A stretch of DNA of 64,000 nt from positions 7,440,001-7,504,000 of the forward strand of contig NC_013729.1 in NCBI RefSeq assembly GCF_000024345.1, written 5' to 3'. Below the pieces are notes generated by a model. It searched no databases. It saw only the letters and a program-made list of their open reading frames with translations, and was not told the DNA's origin. Both the position numbers and the translations under genes were made by a program. Shown piece by piece: positions 29,265 to 42,036 of this stretch. Position 1 is the stretch's first letter, and each line of letters starts with the position of its first letter. Origin of the DNA: Kribbella flavida DSM 17836 (GTDB taxonomy: Bacteria; Actinomycetota; Actinomycetes; Propionibacteriales; Kribbellaceae).

Positions 29265-30088
29265 TGAACGAGGGTAGCGGCCGGCGCGCCACGGCGAGGG
29301 CGGGGCAGCAGGGTGCCGCGGCGACGAGCCAGCCACAGGAACACCACGGTCAGCACCACGCCGGCCACGACCGCGGCGACGCTGGCCTCCGGCCCGAACT
29401 CACCGCCGCTGAGCGCAACCGATCCCGACGTCACGCCGTCCAGCAAGCCTTCCGGCGCACTTGTGCCGGACACGTCGGTGCCGAAGATGGCCGCCTCGGC
29501 GAAGTTCCAGCCGAAGTGCAGGCCGATCGGGACCCAGAGGGTGCGGGTGGCCGCGTAGGCGGCGCCGAGCATGCCGCCGGCCTGGATCGCGATGGCGATC
29601 GTGCTCCACAGGGTCGCGTGCGGGTTGAACAGGTGCGCCAACCCGAACAGCAGGCTGGTCAGCGCCAAGGCCAGCCCGGTGCCGATGCGGCCTTCGACGA
29701 TGCGGAACAGGATGCCGCGGAAGATCAGTTCCTCCGTCACCGCGGCCGCCGCCGTGAAGCCGAGCAGTGCCACCGCGCCCGACGCCGATCCCCAGCCGAC
29801 CACCTGGTAGCCGCCGAGCACGGCGATCGTCGCGATCACCGCCGCGAACAGCGCGACGCCGATCAGGACGCCGCCTCCGACCCTGGTGACAGCTCCGGTC
29901 CGAGCCAGCTCCACCGGCGTACGGCGTTCTGTCCGCCGCACGATCCAGCGGTAGGCCAGCAGCGCCAGCACCGCCGTCGCGACGCCGATAACGAGAGTCA
30001 GCGGCGTGTTCCACTGCGCCGCGCCGACAGCCAGACTGCCGGCGAACGCCACCACTGCCACGACGACCAACTGCTGCACCAGACGCAT
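29261..30088 (-). CDS. CPBP family intramembrane metalloprotease
   Basis: 275 residues with about eight spans. Conserved ABI/CAAX-protease motifs are complete: EE at 119-120 with R124 (VTEELIFRGILF), His152 (FGLAHLFNP) and H191/N195 (LHFGWNFAEA). ATG at 30088 has AAGGAG 7 nt upstream. It heads a three-gene unit with the kinase and response regulator joined by two GTGA overlaps, suggesting that the protease (or its substrate) is part of the signalling path. Confidence 0.9.
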   Translation of the reverse strand: MRLVQQLVVVAVVAFAGSLAVGAAQWNTPLTLVIGVATAVLALLAYRWIVRRTERRTPVELARTGAVTRVGGGVLIGVALFAAVIATIAVLGGYQVVGWGSASGAVALLGFTAAAAVTEELIFRGILFRIVEGRIGTGLALALTSLLFGLAHLFNPHATLWSTIAIAIQAGGMLGAAYAATRTLWVPIGLHFGWNFAEAAIFGTDVSGTSAPEGLLDGVTSGSVALSGGEFGPEASVAAVVAGVVLTVVFLWLARRRGTLLPRPRRGAPAATLVQ

Positions 30089-30242
30089 GTCCACTCCTTC
30101 GCGAGATCCCCGCGAACGAAGCGCCGCGGCCACCTCGAACGCTAGGGATTCTGCGCGCCGGAATCGTCACCGTGCGGTGGACACCTGCGGTAGCTCGCAC
30201 GGGGGACAAATCGGCCCCCGGTTGGTGCGAAACGATCGGTGC

Positions 30243-33200
30243 TCAGCCGTCGTGGGCCATGTCGACGAAGCGGGAGTAGTGGCCCTGGAAGGCGACGACC
30301 ACGTCGGCGGTGGGGCCGTTGCGGTGCTTGGCAACGATGAAGTCGGCTTCGCCGGGCCGGGTGGACTCGCGCTCGTACGCGTCCTCACGGTGCAGCAGGA
30401 TGACGACGTCGGCGTCCTGCTCCAGCGAGTTGTGGGTGGCGATGCCTTCAGCGACGAAGTTGTGCGTGCCCATCACGGTGGCGTCGTAGACCTCTTGCTC
30501 CCCGAGGCTCTCGATCGACGTGACGGCGTCCCAGAAGATGTCGTTGGTCGCGAGCACTTCCAGGTCAGCATCGCCCAGCACATCAGCGACCTCGGCAAGG
30601 CGCTGACGGCTGGGGGCGTGCTTCCACAGGGCCGAGCCGGAGAACTGGGTGCCCATTGCGGCGGCGAACTCACGATGGGTCACCTGCTGGTCGGTCAGCA
30701 CTTCGCGCACCCGCGACCAGACTTCCTTCGGCACGGTGTCGAGGTTCGGGTTGGCACGGAGATCGCGCAATGCGGTTGCCACCTCGAGCGCTTGCAGCCC
30801 ACGCACACCGTGGACACCGATCTCGTCGCAGAACCGGAGCTGGTTCTCGGCGCCGTAGATGTGCAGGTGGTAGCCGTCGCGGTAGCCGGTTTTCCGCGCC
30901 ACCTCGATCCTGCTGAAGATGTTGAAGCGCAGCAGCAATCGGGCCAGGTCGTCCACCAGACGCCGACTGGTCGAGGCGTAGTGGATGCGCGCCTGCCCTG
31001 CCTTGTCGTCCCAGCGGACCGAGCCGTCTGTTGCCCACAGATGCCGGATGAAGGAGCCGACCTGCTCCTTCGGCAGGCCGAAGACACCGGGAGGAACGAA
31101 TTTCTCGTGGCTGCGCAGGCCGAACAGTCCGAGACCGTCCAGCCACTCGGCGATCGGGTTCCGCCGACCGCGAGCAAGCCGGTACGGCGCCGGCAGACGA
31201 AGCGTGGTGACCCGCGCGGCGGCGTACTCGTCGCGCACCGGCGTGATCCCGAACCTCCGACGGGCCGCGGCGCCGACTGCCTCGAGATTGTGCTCGTCGA
31301 TGCTGGCGTAACGGATCGGCTGCCGTCGTACGAACGAGCCGTCGCCGAGCAGGTGGGCCAGCAGGACCACCTCGTCGTCGTTCCACGCCTTGATGTTCAG
31401 CGGGGGCGGAACATGCCGCAAAGACCCGAGCCGCTGGCCCGGAACCAGATCACCCAGCGGCTTCCAGCCGTCGTAGGTCAGGAAGGGATGGTTCGCGGTC
31501 GCCTTGATCTCGCGGCCCGAGGCGAGCTTGAGCCGGAAGACCTCTTTCACCCCGCTCGGGAACACGTGGGTCATCGTGCGCGGTACCAGCTTGAGGCGGT
31601 CGTCCAGGGACCAGACCGGAACGTCCTTCGCATCGTCCGCGAGCAGCTCGCCCAGGGAAATCTCCGCACCGGTGTCCGCCCGCAGCAGACGCGTGTCCGC
31701 GGTGAGGCAGCCCGACTCGCGCAGGTCGGAGGCCATCGGGCGTTTGTCGGAGCGCTGCTCGGAGCCTCGGTTGAGCTGGCAGATGGCGACGACGGGCAGC
31801 TCGAGCTCCTTGGCGAGCAGCTTGATGGAGCGGGAGAACTCGGAGACCTCGAGCTGGCGGGACTCGACCTTCTTGCCGGACGTCATCAGCTGGAGGTAGT
31901 CGATGACGATCAGGCGCAGGTCGTGCCGCTGCTTCAGGCGGCGGGCCTTGGCGCGGATCTCCATCATCGTCAGGTTCGGCGAGTCGTCGATGAACAGTGG
32001 CGCCTCGGACACCTCGCCCATCTTGCGGGCCAGCCGGGCCCAGTCCTCGTCGGTCATCTTGCCGTTGCGCATGTGGTGCAGCGGCACCTTCGCCTCGGCC
32101 GAGAGCAGTCGCATGGTGATCTCGTTGCGGCTCATCTCCAGCGAGAAGATGCACGAGGCCAGGCCGTGCTTGATCGACGCCGAGCGGGCGAAGTCCAGGC
32201 CGAGGGTGGAGTTGTGGGTCGGCACCATCGACTTGCCGGCCAGGTACAGGTGGTCGGGGTTGTCCACCTCGACGCAGCGCACCGGCACGCTCGGCACCGG
32301 CTCGACCAGCTCGACCCGGCGGTCGGGCTCGCCCAGCACCCCGGTGGTGACGCCGTGGCCGGAGATCTCGCGCGGCGCCGACTTCGGCACCGCCGGGGTC
32401 AGGCCCGGGTACGCCGTCATCGCGCTGTGCAGGTCCGCGGTGGTGCAGACGACCGGCTGGCCGCCGTCCTCGACGACCCACTGGTGCTCGGCGTCGGCGA
32501 CCAGCGTGGTGCCGTCGGAGAAGGTGAGCCGGAAGCAGGGCCGGTCGAGCAGCACGTCGGTCGCCGCGACCACCCGGGTCGGCCGGCCGTCGGCGTCGAG
32601 CAGCACGTCGCCGGTGGCGACCTCGCCCATCGTCGTCCAGCCCGACGGCGTCGGCAGCGGAGTGTCCAGCGCGAGCGCCTTGCCCATCGCCGGCCGGGCC
32701 GCGACGATGATCATCTGGCCCGGGTGCAGCCCGTTGGTCAGCTCGTCCAGGTCGGTGAACCCGGTCGGTACGCCGACCATCGCGTCGCCGCGGGAGTCGA
32801 TCGCCTCGATCTCGTCGAGGGCGCCCTCCATGATGTCCTTCAGCGGGGCGTAGTCCTCGGTGGTCCGCTTCTCGGTGACCTGGTAGATCTCCGCCTGCGC
32901 CTCGTCGACGACGTCGTCGACCTCACCCTCGCCGGCGTAGCCGAGCTGCACGATCTTGGTGCCGGCCTCGACCAGCCGGCGCAGGATCGCCTTCTCCCGG
33001 ACGATGTGCGCGTAGTAGCTCGCGTTCGCCGCGAGCGGGACCGAGGCGACCAGCGTGTGCACGTACGGCGCGCCGCCGATCCGGGCCATCTCGCCCCGGC
33101 GGGTCAGCTCGGCGGCGACGGTGATCGCGTCGGCCGGCTCACCCCGGGCGTACAGGTCGGTGATCGCGTCGAAGACCGACTCGTGGGCCGGGCGGTAGAA

Positions 33201-33377
33201 GTCGGTGCCGCGCAGGGTCTCGATGCAGTCGGCGATCGCGTCCTTGCTGAGCATCATCGCGCCGAGCACGCACTGCTCGGCGGCCAGGTCCTGCGGTGGG
33301 GTGCGGTCGAAGCCCATCGCCGGGTTGCGTTCCTCGTTCCCGCCGTCCTGCCCCCCGCGGAACTCCGCAACGCTCAC
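30243..33377 (-). CDS. dnaB: replicative DNA helicase DnaB containing two inteins
   Basis: The primary product is 1044 residues; removal of two inteins (156 and 427 residues) leaves 461, the normal DnaB length. Extein features: N-terminal primase-interaction domain (PPQDLAAEQCVLGAMM), RecA-like domain with P-loop RPAMGK/ST split exactly by intein 1, Walker B LIVIDYLQLM, and SDLRESG/SLEQDAD split by intein 2. C-terminus has VAFQGHYSRF. DnaB unwinds DNA at the fork. Start: GTG at 33377 (VSVAEFRGG) with GAGGAGG upstream; the open frame before it is arginine-rich and outside the family. Helicase activity must depend on splicing since both inteins interrupt catalytic motifs. Confidence 0.95.
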   Translation of the reverse strand: MSVAEFRGGQDGGNEERNPAMGFDRTPPQDLAAEQCVLGAMMLSKDAIADCIETLRGTDFYRPAHESVFDAITDLYARGEPADAITVAAELTRRGEMARIGGAPYVHTLVASVPLAANASYYAHIVREKAILRRLVEAGTKIVQLGYAGEGEVDDVVDEAQAEIYQVTEKRTTEDYAPLKDIMEGALDEIEAIDSRGDAMVGVPTGFTDLDELTNGLHPGQMIIVAARPAMGKALALDTPLPTPSGWTTMGEVATGDVLLDADGRPTRVVAATDVLLDRPCFRLTFSDGTTLVADAEHQWVVEDGGQPVVCTTADLHSAMTAYPGLTPAVPKSAPREISGHGVTTGVLGEPDRRVELVEPVPSVPVRCVEVDNPDHLYLAGKSMVPTHNSTLGLDFARSASIKHGLASCIFSLEMSRNEITMRLLSAEAKVPLHHMRNGKMTDEDWARLARKMGEVSEAPLFIDDSPNLTMMEIRAKARRLKQRHDLRLIVIDYLQLMTSGKKVESRQLEVSEFSRSIKLLAKELELPVVAICQLNRGSEQRSDKRPMASDLRESGCLTADTRLLRADTGAEISLGELLADDAKDVPVWSLDDRLKLVPRTMTHVFPSGVKEVFRLKLASGREIKATANHPFLTYDGWKPLGDLVPGQRLGSLRHVPPPLNIKAWNDDEVVLLAHLLGDGSFVRRQPIRYASIDEHNLEAVGAAARRRFGITPVRDEYAAARVTTLRLPAPYRLARGRRNPIAEWLDGLGLFGLRSHEKFVPPGVFGLPKEQVGSFIRHLWATDGSVRWDDKAGQARIHYASTSRRLVDDLARLLLRFNIFSRIEVARKTGYRDGYHLHIYGAENQLRFCDEIGVHGVRGLQALEVATALRDLRANPNLDTVPKEVWSRVREVLTDQQVTHREFAAAMGTQFSGSALWKHAPSRQRLAEVADVLGDADLEVLATNDIFWDAVTSIESLGEQEVYDATVMGTHNFVAEGIATHNSLEQDADVVILLHREDAYERESTRPGEADFIVAKHRNGPTADVVVAFQGHYSRFVDMAHDG
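30429..31709 (-). other. DnaB intein 2: class 1 intein with LAGLIDADG homing endonuclease
   Basis: 427 residues inserted at ESG/SLEQ, the dnaB-a site also used by the Synechocystis DnaB intein. Canonical splice residues: Cys1 (CLTADTRLL), block B TANH at 71-74 (ATANHPFLT), C-terminal GIATHN with His-Asn and +1 Ser in the extein. The insert between blocks B and F carries two dodecapeptides, LLAHLLGDGS (about 116-125) and FIRHLWATDGS (about 220-230), each with the catalytic acid, so the homing endonuclease looks intact. Confidence 0.92.
32211..32678 (-). other. DnaB intein 1: class 3 mini-intein in the Walker A motif
   Basis: 156 residues inserted between the P-loop Lys and Ser (AMGK/STLG), the dnaB-b site. 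It starts with Ala (ALALDTPLP) rather than Cys/Ser, so it cannot use the standard N-terminal acyl shift. The class 3 W-C-T triplet is present: Trp67 (DAEHQW), Cys135 (VRCVEVDNPDHLYLAG, block F) and Thr154 (MVPTHN, block G), with terminal Asn156 and +1 Ser. In class 3 inteins the block F Cys attacks the N-terminal splice junction directly. No endonuclease domain is present. Confidence 0.9.
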
Positions 33378-33814
33378 TTCGTCCGACCTCCTCGTCCGCC
33401 CAGCCGACCCGCACGCACGCAGACCCGCACCCGCCCGGGTCCGCCGGCCGGCGGATCCGGGAACCAGCCACGGATCGAACACGTGATCGAACCGTATCCG
33501 GCACCGCCGACAAGTTTCCGCGACCCCGTCCGCAGGCGGACTCGCCCCCGAGACTGCGGGCGGACGGTGTCGTCACGCGACCGTACGCCCCTCCCCCCGG
33601 ACCCGGGTAGCCGGACATCCACAGGGGGTGTGGACGACCTGTGGGAAACTCCGGCCGCGGGTGTGCACAGGTTGGGTACATCCCTGTGGATATCTGGGGA
33701 CAAACTTCCACAACCGTGCTCTGACCTGCGATTTTGTCTTCCCACAGCTGTGGAGGAGAAAAACATTCGAGACGTTCGGGTCCGGTGCTCTGTGCACAGA
33801 TCACGCCAGGCACA
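33378..33814. other. non-coding region upstream of dnaB
   Basis: No gene is supported here. The first 220 bp (33378-33600) are GC-rich leader sequence of dnaB on the minus strand. From about 33600 the base composition drops and short stretches of A/T appear (for example GATTTTGTCTT at 33730-33740), together with a cluster of TGTGGA/TCCACA words listed separately. The dnaB promoter should lie in this interval, but I could not single out a -10/-35 pair. Confidence 0.5.
33616..33757. promoter_or_regulatory. cluster of DnaA-box-like nonamers
   Basis: Seven words resembling TT(A/G)TCCACA or its complement within 142 bp: CATCCACA (33616), TGTGGACGA (33629; complement TCGTCCACA), TGTGGGAAA (33640), TGTGGATAT (33685; complement ATATCCACA), ACTTCCACA (33704), CTTCCCACA (33738) and TGTGGAGGA (33749). 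Two have one mismatch to the actinobacterial consensus, others two or three. The cluster lies between dnaB and the MATE gene. Such density suggests DnaA binding, possibly control of dnaB. Confidence 0.45.
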
Positions 33815-33916
33815 ATGAAGCCCATGCCCCTTACCAGCCCGCGGCACCGGGACCACGACGACCGGCCGGAAGCCCGCACCGGAACCAGCGGCACCACCGG
33901 AGCACAGCCGGCGTGA
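33815..33916 (+). CDS. possible small leader ORF coupled to the MATE gene
   Basis: Starts ATG at 33815 and reads MKPMPLTSPRHRDHDDRPEA... for 33 residues, ending TGA at 33914-33916, which overlaps the GTG start of the MATE gene (GTGA). The peptide is His/Asp/Arg-rich and resembles nothing I know. Only a weak AGG precedes the ATG. It could serve translational coupling or be an accident of an open frame. Confidence 0.3.
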   Translation: MKPMPLTSPRHRDHDDRPEARTGTSGTTGAQPA

Positions 33917-36963: not shown

Positions 36964-38889
36964 TCACCCGCGGCGGTCGTTCGGGTTCGGCGGGCTCCAC
37001 TGGGCCTGGCCCCACTGCTGCTGGGGCTGGGACGGTTGCTGGGGCGGTGGCTGCGGCGGCTGCTGCTGGGCCGGCCAGGTGACCTGCGCCGGGCCGAGCG
37101 GGTTGTGCTGGGCCTTCTGGCCGGCCGCGACCCACGGGTTCGCCGACGCGCCGGCCGGACCCGCGGTGGACGCCGCGCCCGGGTCGTACTGCGCCAGCGA
37201 GGCGCGGACCGCGCCGGCGTCCGGCCGGGCCATCCACGGGATCGTCCGGATCATCGTCGCCGGCGTACCGGAGGCGAACACGATCGCCCGGCCCGGCGGC
37301 ATCGAGGTCAGGTCCGAGACCTCCATGATGCTGTGCCGCTGGATCTGGCTGCTGTGCGAGCGCTCGCCCTTCTGGTACGAGACCGAGTTCGACCGGATGT
37401 CGTACTCGCCGATCAGCTTGCTCAGCCGCTCCAGGAAGTTCGCGTCGGACACACCACCGCCGTACACCCGGATGTTCGCGGACGACCAGAGCTTCTCGAT
37501 GCCGTGCTCGCCCCAGCACTCCACGCCCTGCGCCCAGGACTGCAGGATCGTCATCAGCACGATGCCGCGGGAGCCGAAGTGGCTGTACAGGTCGGGCAGG
37601 TCCTTCCAGCGGCAGACGTTCGCCGCCTCGTCCAGGACGCCGACCAGCGGGGTGGGCAGGCGGCCCATCGGGCAGGTCTTGGCGTAGTCCTCGGCCGCCT
37701 CGACGATGGCCACCGTGAGCGCGGCGACCAGCGGGCCCGCCGTACCGGTGCCCTCCTTGGACAGGCTGTACAGGGTGCCGCCGCGGCGGATGAAGTCCTG
37801 CGGGCTGAACTGCGGCCGGTTGTCGGACGGACCGTTCGGGTTGACCCAGCGGGCGACCTGGCGGTTGAGCAGGAACTGCACGTTCGGCTGGGCGCTGCCG
37901 AAGACACCGGCGCGCTGCTTGTCCGGCAGGCTGTAGAGGCTGGCCATCTGCTGCGCCGCGAGCTCGTACCCCGGAGCGTTGTCGAGGATCCGGGCCGGCT
38001 CGTCGTTCAGCTGGTCGCTGAGCCACAGGTAGACCTGGGTGATCGGCCGCTTGGCCAGCGCGGCCGCCAGCAGCAGCCCGGCGAGCAGGTCGGTCGCCAC
38101 GGTGTCGAAGTAGGCGTCCGAGCGGGCGCCCTCCCGGCGCTGGCTGTTGACGATGTGGTCGGCGAACTGCTTGGCCTTCACCTCGCTGGTGACGTAGGTC
38201 AGCGGGTTCCACCACCAGGTCGGCTCCTCGTCGGCGACGCCCTGGGGGTCGAACACCCAGACCGGGCCCTTCGCCGTCCGCGGGCCGCGGGTGGCGTCGA
38301 CGATGTCGCGCTTGTTCGAGGTGGCGATCACCGCGCCCGGCGCGTCCAGGATGGCCGGCACCGCGCGGGTGGTCGTCTTACCGGTCCGCGGGCCCCAGAT
38401 GTCGATGTGCATGTCCTCCCAGGAGCCGAACAGCTCGAGGTCGTCGCGCACCGTACGGCCGATGAAGACGCCCGGACCGGCGTGCCCGGCGCCGAGCCGG
38501 TTCGCGGTCTCCTGGGCCCCTTCGCGCAGGATCTTGCGCAGGTCGCGGCGGTTCGACATCAGGTCGGCGTGCCGGTCCACCCGGGACCGGCTGCCCCGCC
38601 GGCGGCGCAGCAGCAGGAAGACCCCGACCACCAGCGCCACCACGATCGCCAGCTCGGCGATCAGCACCGCGGTCGCGGCCGGCGGCCACTCGTAGTCGCC
38701 GGTGGCCAGCTCGATCAGCACGCTGAGCGGGTTGCCGGTCGGCTTCTTCACGCCGCTGATCGACGCCCCGACCGAGGCGGCGATCCAGGTGCCGAACGAG
38801 GCGAACCCGACCAGTCCGATCAGCGCGAACAGCCCCATCGCCTCCGGCGACAGCGAGTTCGGTCCGGTGCTCTTCCTGCCTTGCGCCAT
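36964..38889 (-). CDS. VirD4/TraG-like coupling ATPase of a type IV secretion-like system
   Basis: 641 residues. Two N-terminal membrane spans (about 18-40 and 72-95), then the T4CP domain with Walker A GPRTGKTT (166-173), ATSNKRDIV, VWVFDPQG, and a Walker B region TPLVGVLDEAANVCRWKDLP followed by the QSWAQGVECWG helix, all typical of TraG/TraD coupling proteins. The last 70 residues are Gln/Pro-rich (WPAQQQPPQPPPQQ), a likely flexible tail. Coupling proteins bring DNA or protein to the secretion channel. ATG overlaps the upstream gene's stop (TGATG). Confidence 0.92.
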   Translation of the reverse strand: MAQGRKSTGPNSLSPEAMGLFALIGLVGFASFGTWIAASVGASISGVKKPTGNPLSVLIELATGDYEWPPAATAVLIAELAIVVALVVGVFLLLRRRRGSRSRVDRHADLMSNRRDLRKILREGAQETANRLGAGHAGPGVFIGRTVRDDLELFGSWEDMHIDIWGPRTGKTTTRAVPAILDAPGAVIATSNKRDIVDATRGPRTAKGPVWVFDPQGVADEEPTWWWNPLTYVTSEVKAKQFADHIVNSQRREGARSDAYFDTVATDLLAGLLLAAALAKRPITQVYLWLSDQLNDEPARILDNAPGYELAAQQMASLYSLPDKQRAGVFGSAQPNVQFLLNRQVARWVNPNGPSDNRPQFSPQDFIRRGGTLYSLSKEGTGTAGPLVAALTVAIVEAAEDYAKTCPMGRLPTPLVGVLDEAANVCRWKDLPDLYSHFGSRGIVLMTILQSWAQGVECWGEHGIEKLWSSANIRVYGGGVSDANFLERLSKLIGEYDIRSNSVSYQKGERSHSSQIQRHSIMEVSDLTSMPPGRAIVFASGTPATMIRTIPWMARPDAGAVRASLAQYDPGAASTAGPAGASANPWVAAGQKAQHNPLGPAQVTWPAQQQPPQPPPQQPSQPQQQWGQAQWSPPNPNDRRG

Positions 38890-40499
38890 CAGTCGTCAAC
38901 TCCCGTACGGGCGACCACGCGGGTCGTCGGGTCGGGCGGCGGCAGCAGCGACGGGTCGTCGAAGCTGTACTGCTCGACGACCTCCTCGGTCCCGTCGTCG
39001 GCGATCTCCACCTTCAGCGGCGTCCCGTCGGCGCCGGTCTTCCACAGCTTGTTCGTGTCGTTGATCTCGCGCTCGACCGAGGTCAGCCCGACGTGCACCG
39101 GGATGCCCGGCCGGCCGCCGACCTTGATCAGGAAGTTTCCACGGCCCGGGGGCGCGGCCTCCTCACCGGTCGCCGGGTCCCACGCGGGCGGGTCCTGCCA
39201 GCCGATCAGCATGTTCTGCTCCTCGCCCGACAGCGGGACGACAGCGGTCAGGTTCTCCATCTCGGCCCGCGGCAGCCCGCCGCAGATCACCATGCCGGAC
39301 CGCTCGACGAAGCCCTTGGCCTTCATCCGGTCCTCGGGGTGCTCCAGCGCGAGCAGGTCGGACATGGTGTGCGAGATCATCGCCATCCCGACACCACGCT
39401 GCCGGTTCAGCCGGGTCAGCGCGTCGACCCGGTCGACCAGGCCGCGGCCGGCCCGCAGTACCCGCCAGAGCTCGTCCAGGATGACGAAGTAGTGCCGCCG
39501 CGGCTCGAGGCCGGCGTCCGCCAGCGCCTGCGAGACCGCGACCGCGCCGAACCCGTACGACCAGCAGGCCAGCAGGACGGCGGCCTGCAGGTTCGTCTCC
39601 GAGTCGTCGATGTTGGACACGTCGAACACGACCGGACGGTCCATCTGCATCGGGTTGTCGGTCTGCTCGGAGAAGATCTCGCCGAGCCGGCCACCGCCGA
39701 CCAGACCGATCAGCGACGCCTCCAGACCCTCGGTGATCTGGCGGTAGCGGTCCAGGCTGCCGCGGTCCAGGGCGACGTTGCGGACCCGGTCCGGCGCGTC
39801 CTGGACCACCTTGAGCAGGTCGCGCAGGACCGGCGTTCCGTCGTGCCGCTCGTCGAGGACCTTGAGGGCCTCGTCGATGATGGTCTCCTCGCGGTCCGAC
39901 GGCGGCGCCGAGCGCATGATCGAGATCAGCGCCGAGACCATCGTCTGCCGGCGGCCGTGCGCGTCGGCCTGGATCGCCTGGCGGGCGCTGCCGGTCAGCC
40001 GGAGCGCGGCCTTGCGGGACTCGCCCGGGTCCAGCACGTTCAGGTGCCCTCGGCCACGACCGAGCTCGATCACCTGGCCGCCGAGCGCCAGGATCAGGTC
40101 CTTGTAGTCGGGCTTGAGGTCGCCCAGCACCAGCGGCTGGATGCCGTAGCCGGCGAGGCCGAGCGCCATCCGCCGAGTGATCGTCGACTTGCCCAGACCC
40201 GGCTTGCCGAGCACGAACATCGACGGGTTCGAGATCAGCTTGGCCCGCATGAACCAGCTGATCGGGTCGCAGCACATGGTGGCGCCGGAGAGGATGTTGC
40301 GGCCGATCGGGACGCCGACCATCGGGCTGCCGGTGCCGGCCGCGAACGGCCACATGCCGCAGACCTGCACCGTCGTACCGCGCCACTCCGCCGGTGCCTG
40401 CAGGTACGTCGAGTAGCCGCCGCCCATCCCGGGCCAGCCACGGGGCATCGGGCGGCGGCCACCCTTGCTCGGGTCGACCGGCTTCTTCTTCTTGCTCAC
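38889..40499 (-). CDS. VirB4-like secretion ATPase
   Basis: 536 residues, soluble. Walker A GKPGLGKST (98-106), LVLGDLKPDYKDLI, GRGRGHLNVLDPG and Walker B RRHYFVILDELWRVLR match the C-terminal ATPase half of VirB4/TrbE proteins; TRLNRQRGVGMAMISHTMSD is the motor-domain sensor region. The N-terminal VirB4 half is missing and is probably supplied by the neighbouring SCO6880-like protein. Gap to that gene is 16 bp. Confidence 0.9.
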   Translation of the reverse strand: MSKKKKPVDPSKGGRRPMPRGWPGMGGGYSTYLQAPAEWRGTTVQVCGMWPFAAGTGSPMVGVPIGRNILSGATMCCDPISWFMRAKLISNPSMFVLGKPGLGKSTITRRMALGLAGYGIQPLVLGDLKPDYKDLILALGGQVIELGRGRGHLNVLDPGESRKAALRLTGSARQAIQADAHGRRQTMVSALISIMRSAPPSDREETIIDEALKVLDERHDGTPVLRDLLKVVQDAPDRVRNVALDRGSLDRYRQITEGLEASLIGLVGGGRLGEIFSEQTDNPMQMDRPVVFDVSNIDDSETNLQAAVLLACWSYGFGAVAVSQALADAGLEPRRHYFVILDELWRVLRAGRGLVDRVDALTRLNRQRGVGMAMISHTMSDLLALEHPEDRMKAKGFVERSGMVICGGLPRAEMENLTAVVPLSGEEQNMLIGWQDPPAWDPATGEEAAPPGRGNFLIKVGGRPGIPVHVGLTSVEREINDTNKLWKTGADGTPLKVEIADDGTEEVVEQYSFDDPSLLPPPDPTTRVVARTGVDD

Positions 40500-40515: not shown

Positions 40516-42036
40516 TCACAGGGCTTCCCGCAGGCCGGCCGGAACCGACAGGTGGCTCTGCATCACGATGCCGAGCGGCAGCCCGGCGACGAAGGCGGAG
40601 TCCTGCGACCCGTACGCCGGCCGCAGCAGGACGCGGGCGGTGGCGCCGAGGTTGTCGATGGCGGCGACCATGTCCGGCAACTGCTCGGCCGACATCACCG
40701 TGCCGGTGACGACCATGCCGAAGTTGACCAGACCGGCGCCGCGGGCCTCCTCCTGCGCGGTCCGCTCCGCCGCCCGGGCCTCGGCCATCGACCGGGCCGA
40801 CGGACGGGCGGAGGCGGTGGCCCGGAACGAGGCGTTGCGCTTGTCGGCCTCGACCATCCGGGCCGCGGTGGCCGCGTCGAGCGGCCGGTAGAGCAGGGTG
40901 ACGCGCTTGCGGTCGATGTCGGGGTGCGGCCCGACCAGCTGGGACAGCACCGACGAGAACACCTCACCGCGAGGCGCCTGCGTCATCTGCCAGGTGATCG
41001 ACCAGGCGCTGTCGTGCCGGTACTTGTCCCAGAACGCCTGGGCGCCGGCCGGGCCGACGTCGGTCCACTGCAGCTCGGGCGAGATGCCCTGGCTGCGCGC
41101 CTCGTCGATCAGCACCGCGGCGGCCGGGTCGTAGGCGATCCGGACGGTCTCGCACAGCTCCTGCGCGGCCACCGGACGCGCGGCACCGGCACCGGTGGAG
41201 TTCAGGCTCTGGGTGAGCGCGGGCAGCCGGGACGCCAGCTCGCGGCCCATATCGTCTTCCTTGCGGCGCTTGCCGTTGCGGTCGGTGCCCTTGAACGTCA
41301 GCGCGACCCGGGCCGACACCAGCGCCGACCCCTCCGGGTAGGTCTGGATGACCTCGGCCAGCATCGCGCGCGCGATCGCGGGGCTGCCGTCCTGCATGTT
41401 GTGCGACACCTCGCGGCGCAGCCGGATCCCGGTGTCCGGCGCGGTCTCGACGGTGACCGAGGCGGCGACGATGCCCGGCTCGTGGCCGAGCGAGGCGAGC
41501 CACTGACCCCAGTGCGCGACCCAGACGTCGACCTGGTCCTCGTCGACCAGCGACGCACCGTCCGGCTCGGCGTTGATCACCACGGTGAAGTGCCGGGTGC
41601 TCGGGTAGAACAGCAGCGCGAACGGCCGCCCGTAGGAGTCCTGGTACTCGCTGAGCTGGGAGGCGGCGGCCAGGCCGGGCAGCTGGAACTTGCCCCACGC
41701 CGTACGGCCCAGTGGTCCGGATCGGTAGATGTTGTGCCTGGCCATCTTCGCTCGCTGCCATCCAATTCGGGTCGAGAGCCTCTGCAGGGCGGAGTGCCCG
41801 TGCTTGTCCTTGGTCATCAGCAGCAGCAGGATCGTGCCGACGATCATCAGCGACACCAGGGCGCCGGCCACACCGCTGGCCAGCGTGGCGATCATCGTGA
41901 TCACCAGGCCGAACATCATGATGACGGTGCCGAGCATGCCCATCCCGGCGATTCCCGCCGAGGCGGGCGCCCGCCAGTTCCCGTACGTCCTGGGAGCCGT
42001 TCGTACGTTGTCAGCCGCTGCCACTTGGTCCCTCAT
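40516..42036 (-). CDS. SCO6880 family protein (VirB3/VirB4-N-like)
   Basis: 506 residues. Two hydrophobic segments at about residues 30-75 with the PrgI/VirB3-like layout are followed by a long soluble alpha/beta region (NIYRSGPLGRTAWGKFQLPG, SYGRPFALLFYP...HFTVVINAEPDG, LLYRPLDAATAARMVE). The protein belongs to the SCO6880 family found with VirB4/VirD4 genes in actinobacteria and probably corresponds to VirB3 fused to the N-terminal VirB4 domain. Its start overlaps the TrbL-like gene by 26 bp. Confidence 0.82.
   Translation of the reverse strand: MRDQVAAADNVRTAPRTYGNWRAPASAGIAGMGMLGTVIMMFGLVITMIATLASGVAGALVSLMIVGTILLLLMTKDKHGHSALQRLSTRIGWQRAKMARHNIYRSGPLGRTAWGKFQLPGLAAASQLSEYQDSYGRPFALLFYPSTRHFTVVINAEPDGASLVDEDQVDVWVAHWGQWLASLGHEPGIVAASVTVETAPDTGIRLRREVSHNMQDGSPAIARAMLAEVIQTYPEGSALVSARVALTFKGTDRNGKRRKEDDMGRELASRLPALTQSLNSTGAGAARPVAAQELCETVRIAYDPAAAVLIDEARSQGISPELQWTDVGPAGAQAFWDKYRHDSAWSITWQMTQAPRGEVFSSVLSQLVGPHPDIDRKRVTLLYRPLDAATAARMVEADKRNASFRATASARPSARSMAEARAAERTAQEEARGAGLVNFGMVVTGTVMSAEQLPDMVAAIDNLGATARVLLRPAYGSQDSAFVAGLPLGIVMQSHLSVPAGLREAL

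Follow-up and report, generated by a model that had tools for sequence, protein, structure and literature searches.

The replicative helicase gene dnaB of the soil bacterium Kribbella flavida, located within the 64,000-nucleotide stretch of DNA analysed here (the window), is interrupted by two in-frame inteins, the first of which (intein 1) splits the Walker A motif of the helicase. With a probability of roughly 93%, intein 1 is a chromosomal class 3 intein that lacks an endonuclease, occupies site b of the sole dnaB gene and would splice by the route set out below. The relevant coordinates are collected in Table 1. The start of dnaB was assigned by homology to the ATG at 33317, and the predicted spliced DnaB comprises 441 residues. 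A search of the K. flavida genome, a single contig of 7,579,488 bases, revealed one dnaB locus. An open frame of 1270 residues was also observed antisense to dnaB (30006-33818, plus strand) and is most likely a shadow cast by the high-GC coding sequence.

Table 1. Features of dnaB, its inteins and neighbouring conjugation-like genes (positions within the window).
Feature	Position	Strand	Basis
dnaB, replicative helicase precursor with two inteins	30243..33317	-	TIGR00665 DnaB 3.5e-154, NF005852
DnaB N-extein, C-terminal end ARPAMGK (Walker A Lys)	32679..33317	-	translation, empty alleles
Intein 1: class 3 mini-intein, 156 residues, DnaB site b, counterpart of M. smegmatis DnaBi1	32211..32678	-	
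Ala1, no N-terminal nucleophile	32676..32678	-	
Cys48, counterpart of M. smegmatis redox-switch partner of the catalytic Cys	32535..32537	-	PMC6195587
His65, block B (B:10)	32484..32486	-	
Trp67, W of W-C-T (B:12)	32478..32480	-	
Linker, residues 71-125, where full-length sister inteins hold a LAGLIDADG endonuclease	32304..32468	-	
Cys135, C of W-C-T (F:4), predicted initiating nucleophile, equivalent to M. smegmatis Cys118	32274..32276	-	
Thr154, T of W-C-T (G:5)	32217..32219	-	
His155-Asn156, C-terminal cleavage pair	32211..32216	-	
+1 Ser, doubling as Walker A Ser	32208..32210	-	
DnaB middle extein, 167 residues	31710..32210	-	
Intein 2: 427 residues, Cys1, LAGLIDADG_3 and intein-splicing domains, HN/S end, class 1 type, DnaB site a (DnaBi2 type)	30429..31709	-	
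DnaB C-extein	30246..30428	-	
VirD4/TraG-like gene	37072-38892	-	
VirB4-like gene	38892-40496	-	
SCO6880-family gene	40516-42036	-	

The original prediction, which had placed a 156-residue in-frame insert beginning with Ala at exactly 32211-32678, agrees with the minus-strand translation, and the Trp67, Cys135, Thr154, Asn156 and +1 Ser that it named are all present. The translation also contains Trp14, and its cysteines are Cys48, Cys78 and Cys135. The proposed split of the DnaB Walker A motif, between its Lys and Ser, was borne out by the flanking residues, ARPAMGK/STLGLDF, and by intein-free alleles in three genomes of the same genus (G003, G007 and G030), in which this motif is uninterrupted and the exteins are identical to those of the window at 353-355 of 367 aligned residues. 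Since these sister alleles run straight through the junction, the boundary is exact. No upstream Cys or Ser junction, the outcome named beforehand as counting against the assignment, was found, the three empty alleles being uninterrupted. The minus strand, the second intein at 30429-31709, Cys48 and the published M. smegmatis architecture did not figure in that prediction.

The class 3 assignment it proposed is likewise supported, given that position 1 is not Cys, Ser or Thr, Trp67, Cys135 and Thr154 occupy B:12, F:4 and G:5, Ser+1 follows a His-Asn pair, and both the predicted HINT fold and the nearest relatives are those of class 3 inteins. In a phmmer search against the PDB, intein 1 matched M. 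smegmatis DnaBi1 (6bs8, E 3.1e-45) over residues 1-156 and the M. chimaera intein (6rix, E 5.1e-45) over its full length; the pattern is not one of chance. An AlphaFold2 model built from an input alignment of 34 unmodified sequences had a pLDDT of 91.4 and a pTM of 0.86, with lower confidence in the part of the linker around residues 100-119, and a Foldseek search with this model placed 6bs8 and 6rix on top (E 3e-16, target TM 0.89-0.94). Within the linker, a helix is predicted at residues 80-89, followed by the loop of lower confidence. The Walker A Lys/Ser site and the lack of an endonuclease are features of DnaBi1-type inteins, and a second Cys is present at position 48, as in the DnaBi1 redox switch. 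No Pfam match was obtained for the 156 residues of intein 1, endonuclease families included, and NCBIfam matches were weak; the element is therefore missed by generic intein models.

Experiments on relatives (PMC6195587, PMC7360933, PMC5222942) provide the basis on which we infer that intein 1 splices through a branched intermediate and is reversibly inhibited by oxidants, via a Cys48-Cys135 disulfide, or by zinc. Here, Cys135, activated by His65, would attack the Lys(-1)-Ala1 peptide bond to give a branched thioester at block F, after which the N-extein would pass to Ser+1 and Asn156 would cyclise; a shift from ester to peptide bond would then restore the Walker A motif of DnaB. Before splicing the P-loop is split and binding of ATP by DnaB would not be expected, so that maturation of the helicase would hinge on intein 1 as well as intein 2. 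On sound grounds, replication would be conditional on splicing, because one dnaB was found in the genome search and the unspliced M. smegmatis DnaB precursor has been termed nonfunctional (PMC7360933). The rate and regulation of splicing in K. flavida may differ from those of the mycobacterial inteins, since the linker (residues 71-125) exceeds that of the characterised mycobacterial examples in length and residues 100-119 are modelled with lower confidence.

Site b was compared across 38 Kribbella species, of which 33 carry a mini-intein (all of 156 residues), two a full-length intein of 413 residues and three an empty site; a same-genus search with the intein returned a match in 36 of the 38 genomes. 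The two full-length elements (L024:4521-5759 and L025:4128-5366) are class 3 inteins of dnaB that carry, besides a Cys-rich (CxxC) insert, an endonuclease of the LAGLIDADG type. Ala1, Cys48, Asp62, His65, Trp67, Cys135, His143, Thr154 and Asn156 are invariant in the 33 minis, and Cys78, which sits in the linker, is found in 31 of them. A tree of the splicing blocks (107 columns, with many forks unresolved) recovered the 35 Kribbella inteins as a clade (95/93), with the 33 minis nested in it as a single group (94/96) and the two full-length forms lying outside that group. Most simply, the Kribbella minis would descend from a single loss of the homing endonuclease, and alignment revealed that the mini linker retains a TT-centred stretch that in full-length forms precedes the endonuclease. 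In a related family (f3), site-b minis fall at several separate points among the full-length inteins of the tree, a scatter that suggests, with no formal count, several further endonuclease losses.

Matches were obtained in 81 of 397 genomes of the order (threshold 1e-6) and in 96 of 395 of the class (1e-20). Those read closely lay mostly at the RPxxGK/S motif of DnaB, and outside Kribbella full-length inteins were commoner than minis. The best match among plasmids was a Mycobacterium dnaB, at 55% over the full length, and phage matches comprised terminases and other proteins, none with a single stretch spanning 80% of the query; a plasmid or phage copy was rejected as the closest relative on these results. 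Among the papers searched, none combined Kribbella and intein. Two further arrangements were observed among the matches. One open frame in a genome of the same order (L082, genome G059) contains two class 3 type inteins of 457 and 574 residues, one of them after a Walker A Lys, and at L084, L086 and L087 class 3 type inteins that start with Gly1 occupy a non-P-loop site, RVVDYK/TGK, in what is possibly a RecB-like nuclease.

The two inteins of dnaB have different histories. On the Kribbella extein tree, the state of site b changes four times, always in early-branching species, and every one of the 31 species in the main clade carries the mini. Intein 2 is present in 26 species and absent from 12, with 10 presence/absence changes on the same tree; with three outgroup rows included there were 12 changes, compared with 12.5 for shuffled labels, and hence no phylogenetic clustering. 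DNA distances for intein 1 and the extein were correlated (Mantel r 0.74, with none of 2000 permutations as high), and dN/dS was 0.29 for intein 1 (0.20-0.25 in the blocks, 0.28-0.39 in the linker) and 0.08 for the extein. Taken together, the distances, change counts and dN/dS values indicate that intein 1 has descended along with dnaB under selection to remain functional and that intein 2 behaves like a mobile element, its scatter being what active homing and loss would produce. Such inheritance alone is no demonstration that the cell benefits. A peak of codon divergence was also seen in the 15 codons after site b (32166-32210, minus strand), where empty alleles and the main mini clade differ by 0.69, compared with ~0.22 elsewhere; within the main mini clade the value for these codons is ~0.3, and site a shows no peak. 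This peak could stem from co-conversion that accompanies homing or from local freedom in codon choice.

The second cysteine bears on whether splicing is regulated. In M. smegmatis DnaBi1, Cys118 and Cys48 form a disulfide under H2O2, every Cys48 mutant tested failed to splice, and the authors label Cys48 'non-conserved' (PMC6195587). Cys48 was found in all 66 site-b inteins examined from the order and in all 40 sampled across the class, that is, in 106 of 106 class 3 inteins of the DnaB type, the 40 having been picked by similarity to the intein of the window and nine of them being represented by sequence that leaves out the extein and so the insertion site. The published label is thus corrected, the residue being present in every intein of the DnaB type examined. 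In a separate class 3 clade from other host proteins this position is Val, Leu or Ala; Cys48 is therefore conserved in the DnaB type yet dispensable for class 3 chemistry generally. Given that Cys48 mutants do not splice, its conservation can be accounted for by splicing activity alone and is no proof of a redox switch; it is as compatible with a switch as with a plain requirement for activity. The zinc ligands of DnaBi1 are C118, V119 and Y128 (PMC7360933), the K. flavida equivalents of which are C135, V136 and Y145.

Retention of the mini is probably neutral, with a once-mobile class 3 intein that has shed its endonuclease persisting only because exact deletion is rare. The 413-residue LAGLIDADG versions at the same site in two sister species are consistent with this origin, as are the same-site minis found in several parts of the tree for related genera, and the retention and dN/dS of intein 1 are compatible with it. 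The constraint on the linker (dN/dS 0.28-0.39 and a constant 156 residues in 33 species) is unexplained by neutral persistence alone and may be structural.

It is unlikely that Kribbella has instead domesticated the mini to serve as a replication checkpoint gated by redox state or zinc, with Cys48 and possibly Cys78 as sensors, and has retained it since a pause in DnaB maturation during oxidative stress helps the cell. Cys48, Cys135, Val136 and Tyr145 do match the residues that form the disulfide pair and bind zinc in M. smegmatis (PMC6195587, PMC7360933), dN/dS is well under 1, and the presence of an endonuclease-less mini throughout the 31 species of the main clade contrasts with the 10 changes of intein 2. 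However, purifying selection and retention are equally expected of any intein in an essential protein that must splice and is not precisely deletable, and Cys48 is required for splicing itself. If true, such a checkpoint would extend the mycobacterial model of conditional splicing to a second, non-pathogenic lineage and would explain endonuclease-free retention in 31 species of one clade.

A splicing-dead or cleavage-only pseudo-intein has a class 3-like precedent in Arthrobacter Arth_1007 (PMC3196547), but that element is without the F:4 Cys that the K. flavida intein has; with catalytic residues intact and invariant in 33 species, and an essential host gene for which one locus was found, this explanation is very improbable. 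Least credible is a class 1 intein with a misplaced boundary and an upstream Cys or Ser, which is contradicted by the junction in the empty alleles and by the occurrence of Cys or Ser at position 1 in 0 of 66 site-b inteins of the order and 0 of 40 of the class.

In some sister species, conjugation-like genes close to dnaB provide further insertion sites for class 3 inteins. In the window, the Walker A motifs of the VirD4-like, VirB4-like and SCO6880-family genes are intact, with empty junctions at 38376/38377 and 40187/40188. Among the 38 sister species, a class 3 intein with an endonuclease was found at the Walker A Lys/Ser of the VirB4-like gene in five and at Lys/Thr of the VirD4-like gene in one (loci L026-L030 cover the VirB4/VirD4 cases). 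The possibility that the dnaB mini arose recently from the class 3 intein that interrupts the VirB4-like gene of sister species was considered and rejected, because the clade of the VirB4-like inteins sits on a separate long branch.

Insertion into a P-loop is a recognised habit of inteins (PMC5050341), and a Lys/Thr P-loop insertion has been described for TerL1-a (PMC5050341, cited for the site and not the class). The class 3 inteins of phage terminases (TerL1 sites) and of Burkholderia IcmO share the class 3 signature with intein 1 but reside in other host proteins, many with an endonuclease; in the IcmO intein, the +1 residue is Cys and the flanks differ (PMC5222942). Residues 1-72 of intein 1 are also matched by PHROG terminase profiles (5.6e-17). 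By its published description, the M. leprae DnaB intein is also a class 3 element at site b with no endonuclease; it is the only intein of that gene and has extra non-catalytic cysteines, C-81 and C-110 (PMC8557812). The M. chimaera DnaB1 intein (6rix, 6riy) is alike in class, with Foldseek E values of 3e-16 to 8e-16, but differs in having 145 residues and Cys124 as the catalytic Cys.

The closest parallel is M. smegmatis dnaB, in which Kelley et al. (PMC6195587) described a class 3 intein without an endonuclease in the P-loop (DnaBi1, site b) and a class 1 intein with one (DnaBi2, site a). DnaBi1 (6bs8, 6own) resembles intein 1 in its Lys/Ser site, W-C-T triplet, Ala1, Cys48, Asp62, HINT fold and missing endonuclease, as well as in the numbering of Trp67 (PMC6195587) and in being accompanied by an endonuclease-bearing partner. 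It has 139 residues compared with 156 in K. flavida, the latter having a longer 71-125 linker and a third Cys (Cys78). Given that this identical two-intein layout is already published, the K. flavida intein belongs to a known kind. Kribbella offers a useful natural comparison, because a single gene, followed across 38 species, combines an immobile intein of class 3 with a mobile one of class 1 and shows empty, mini and full-length states at one site, so that it becomes testable whether conditional DnaB splicing is general or confined to mycobacteria.
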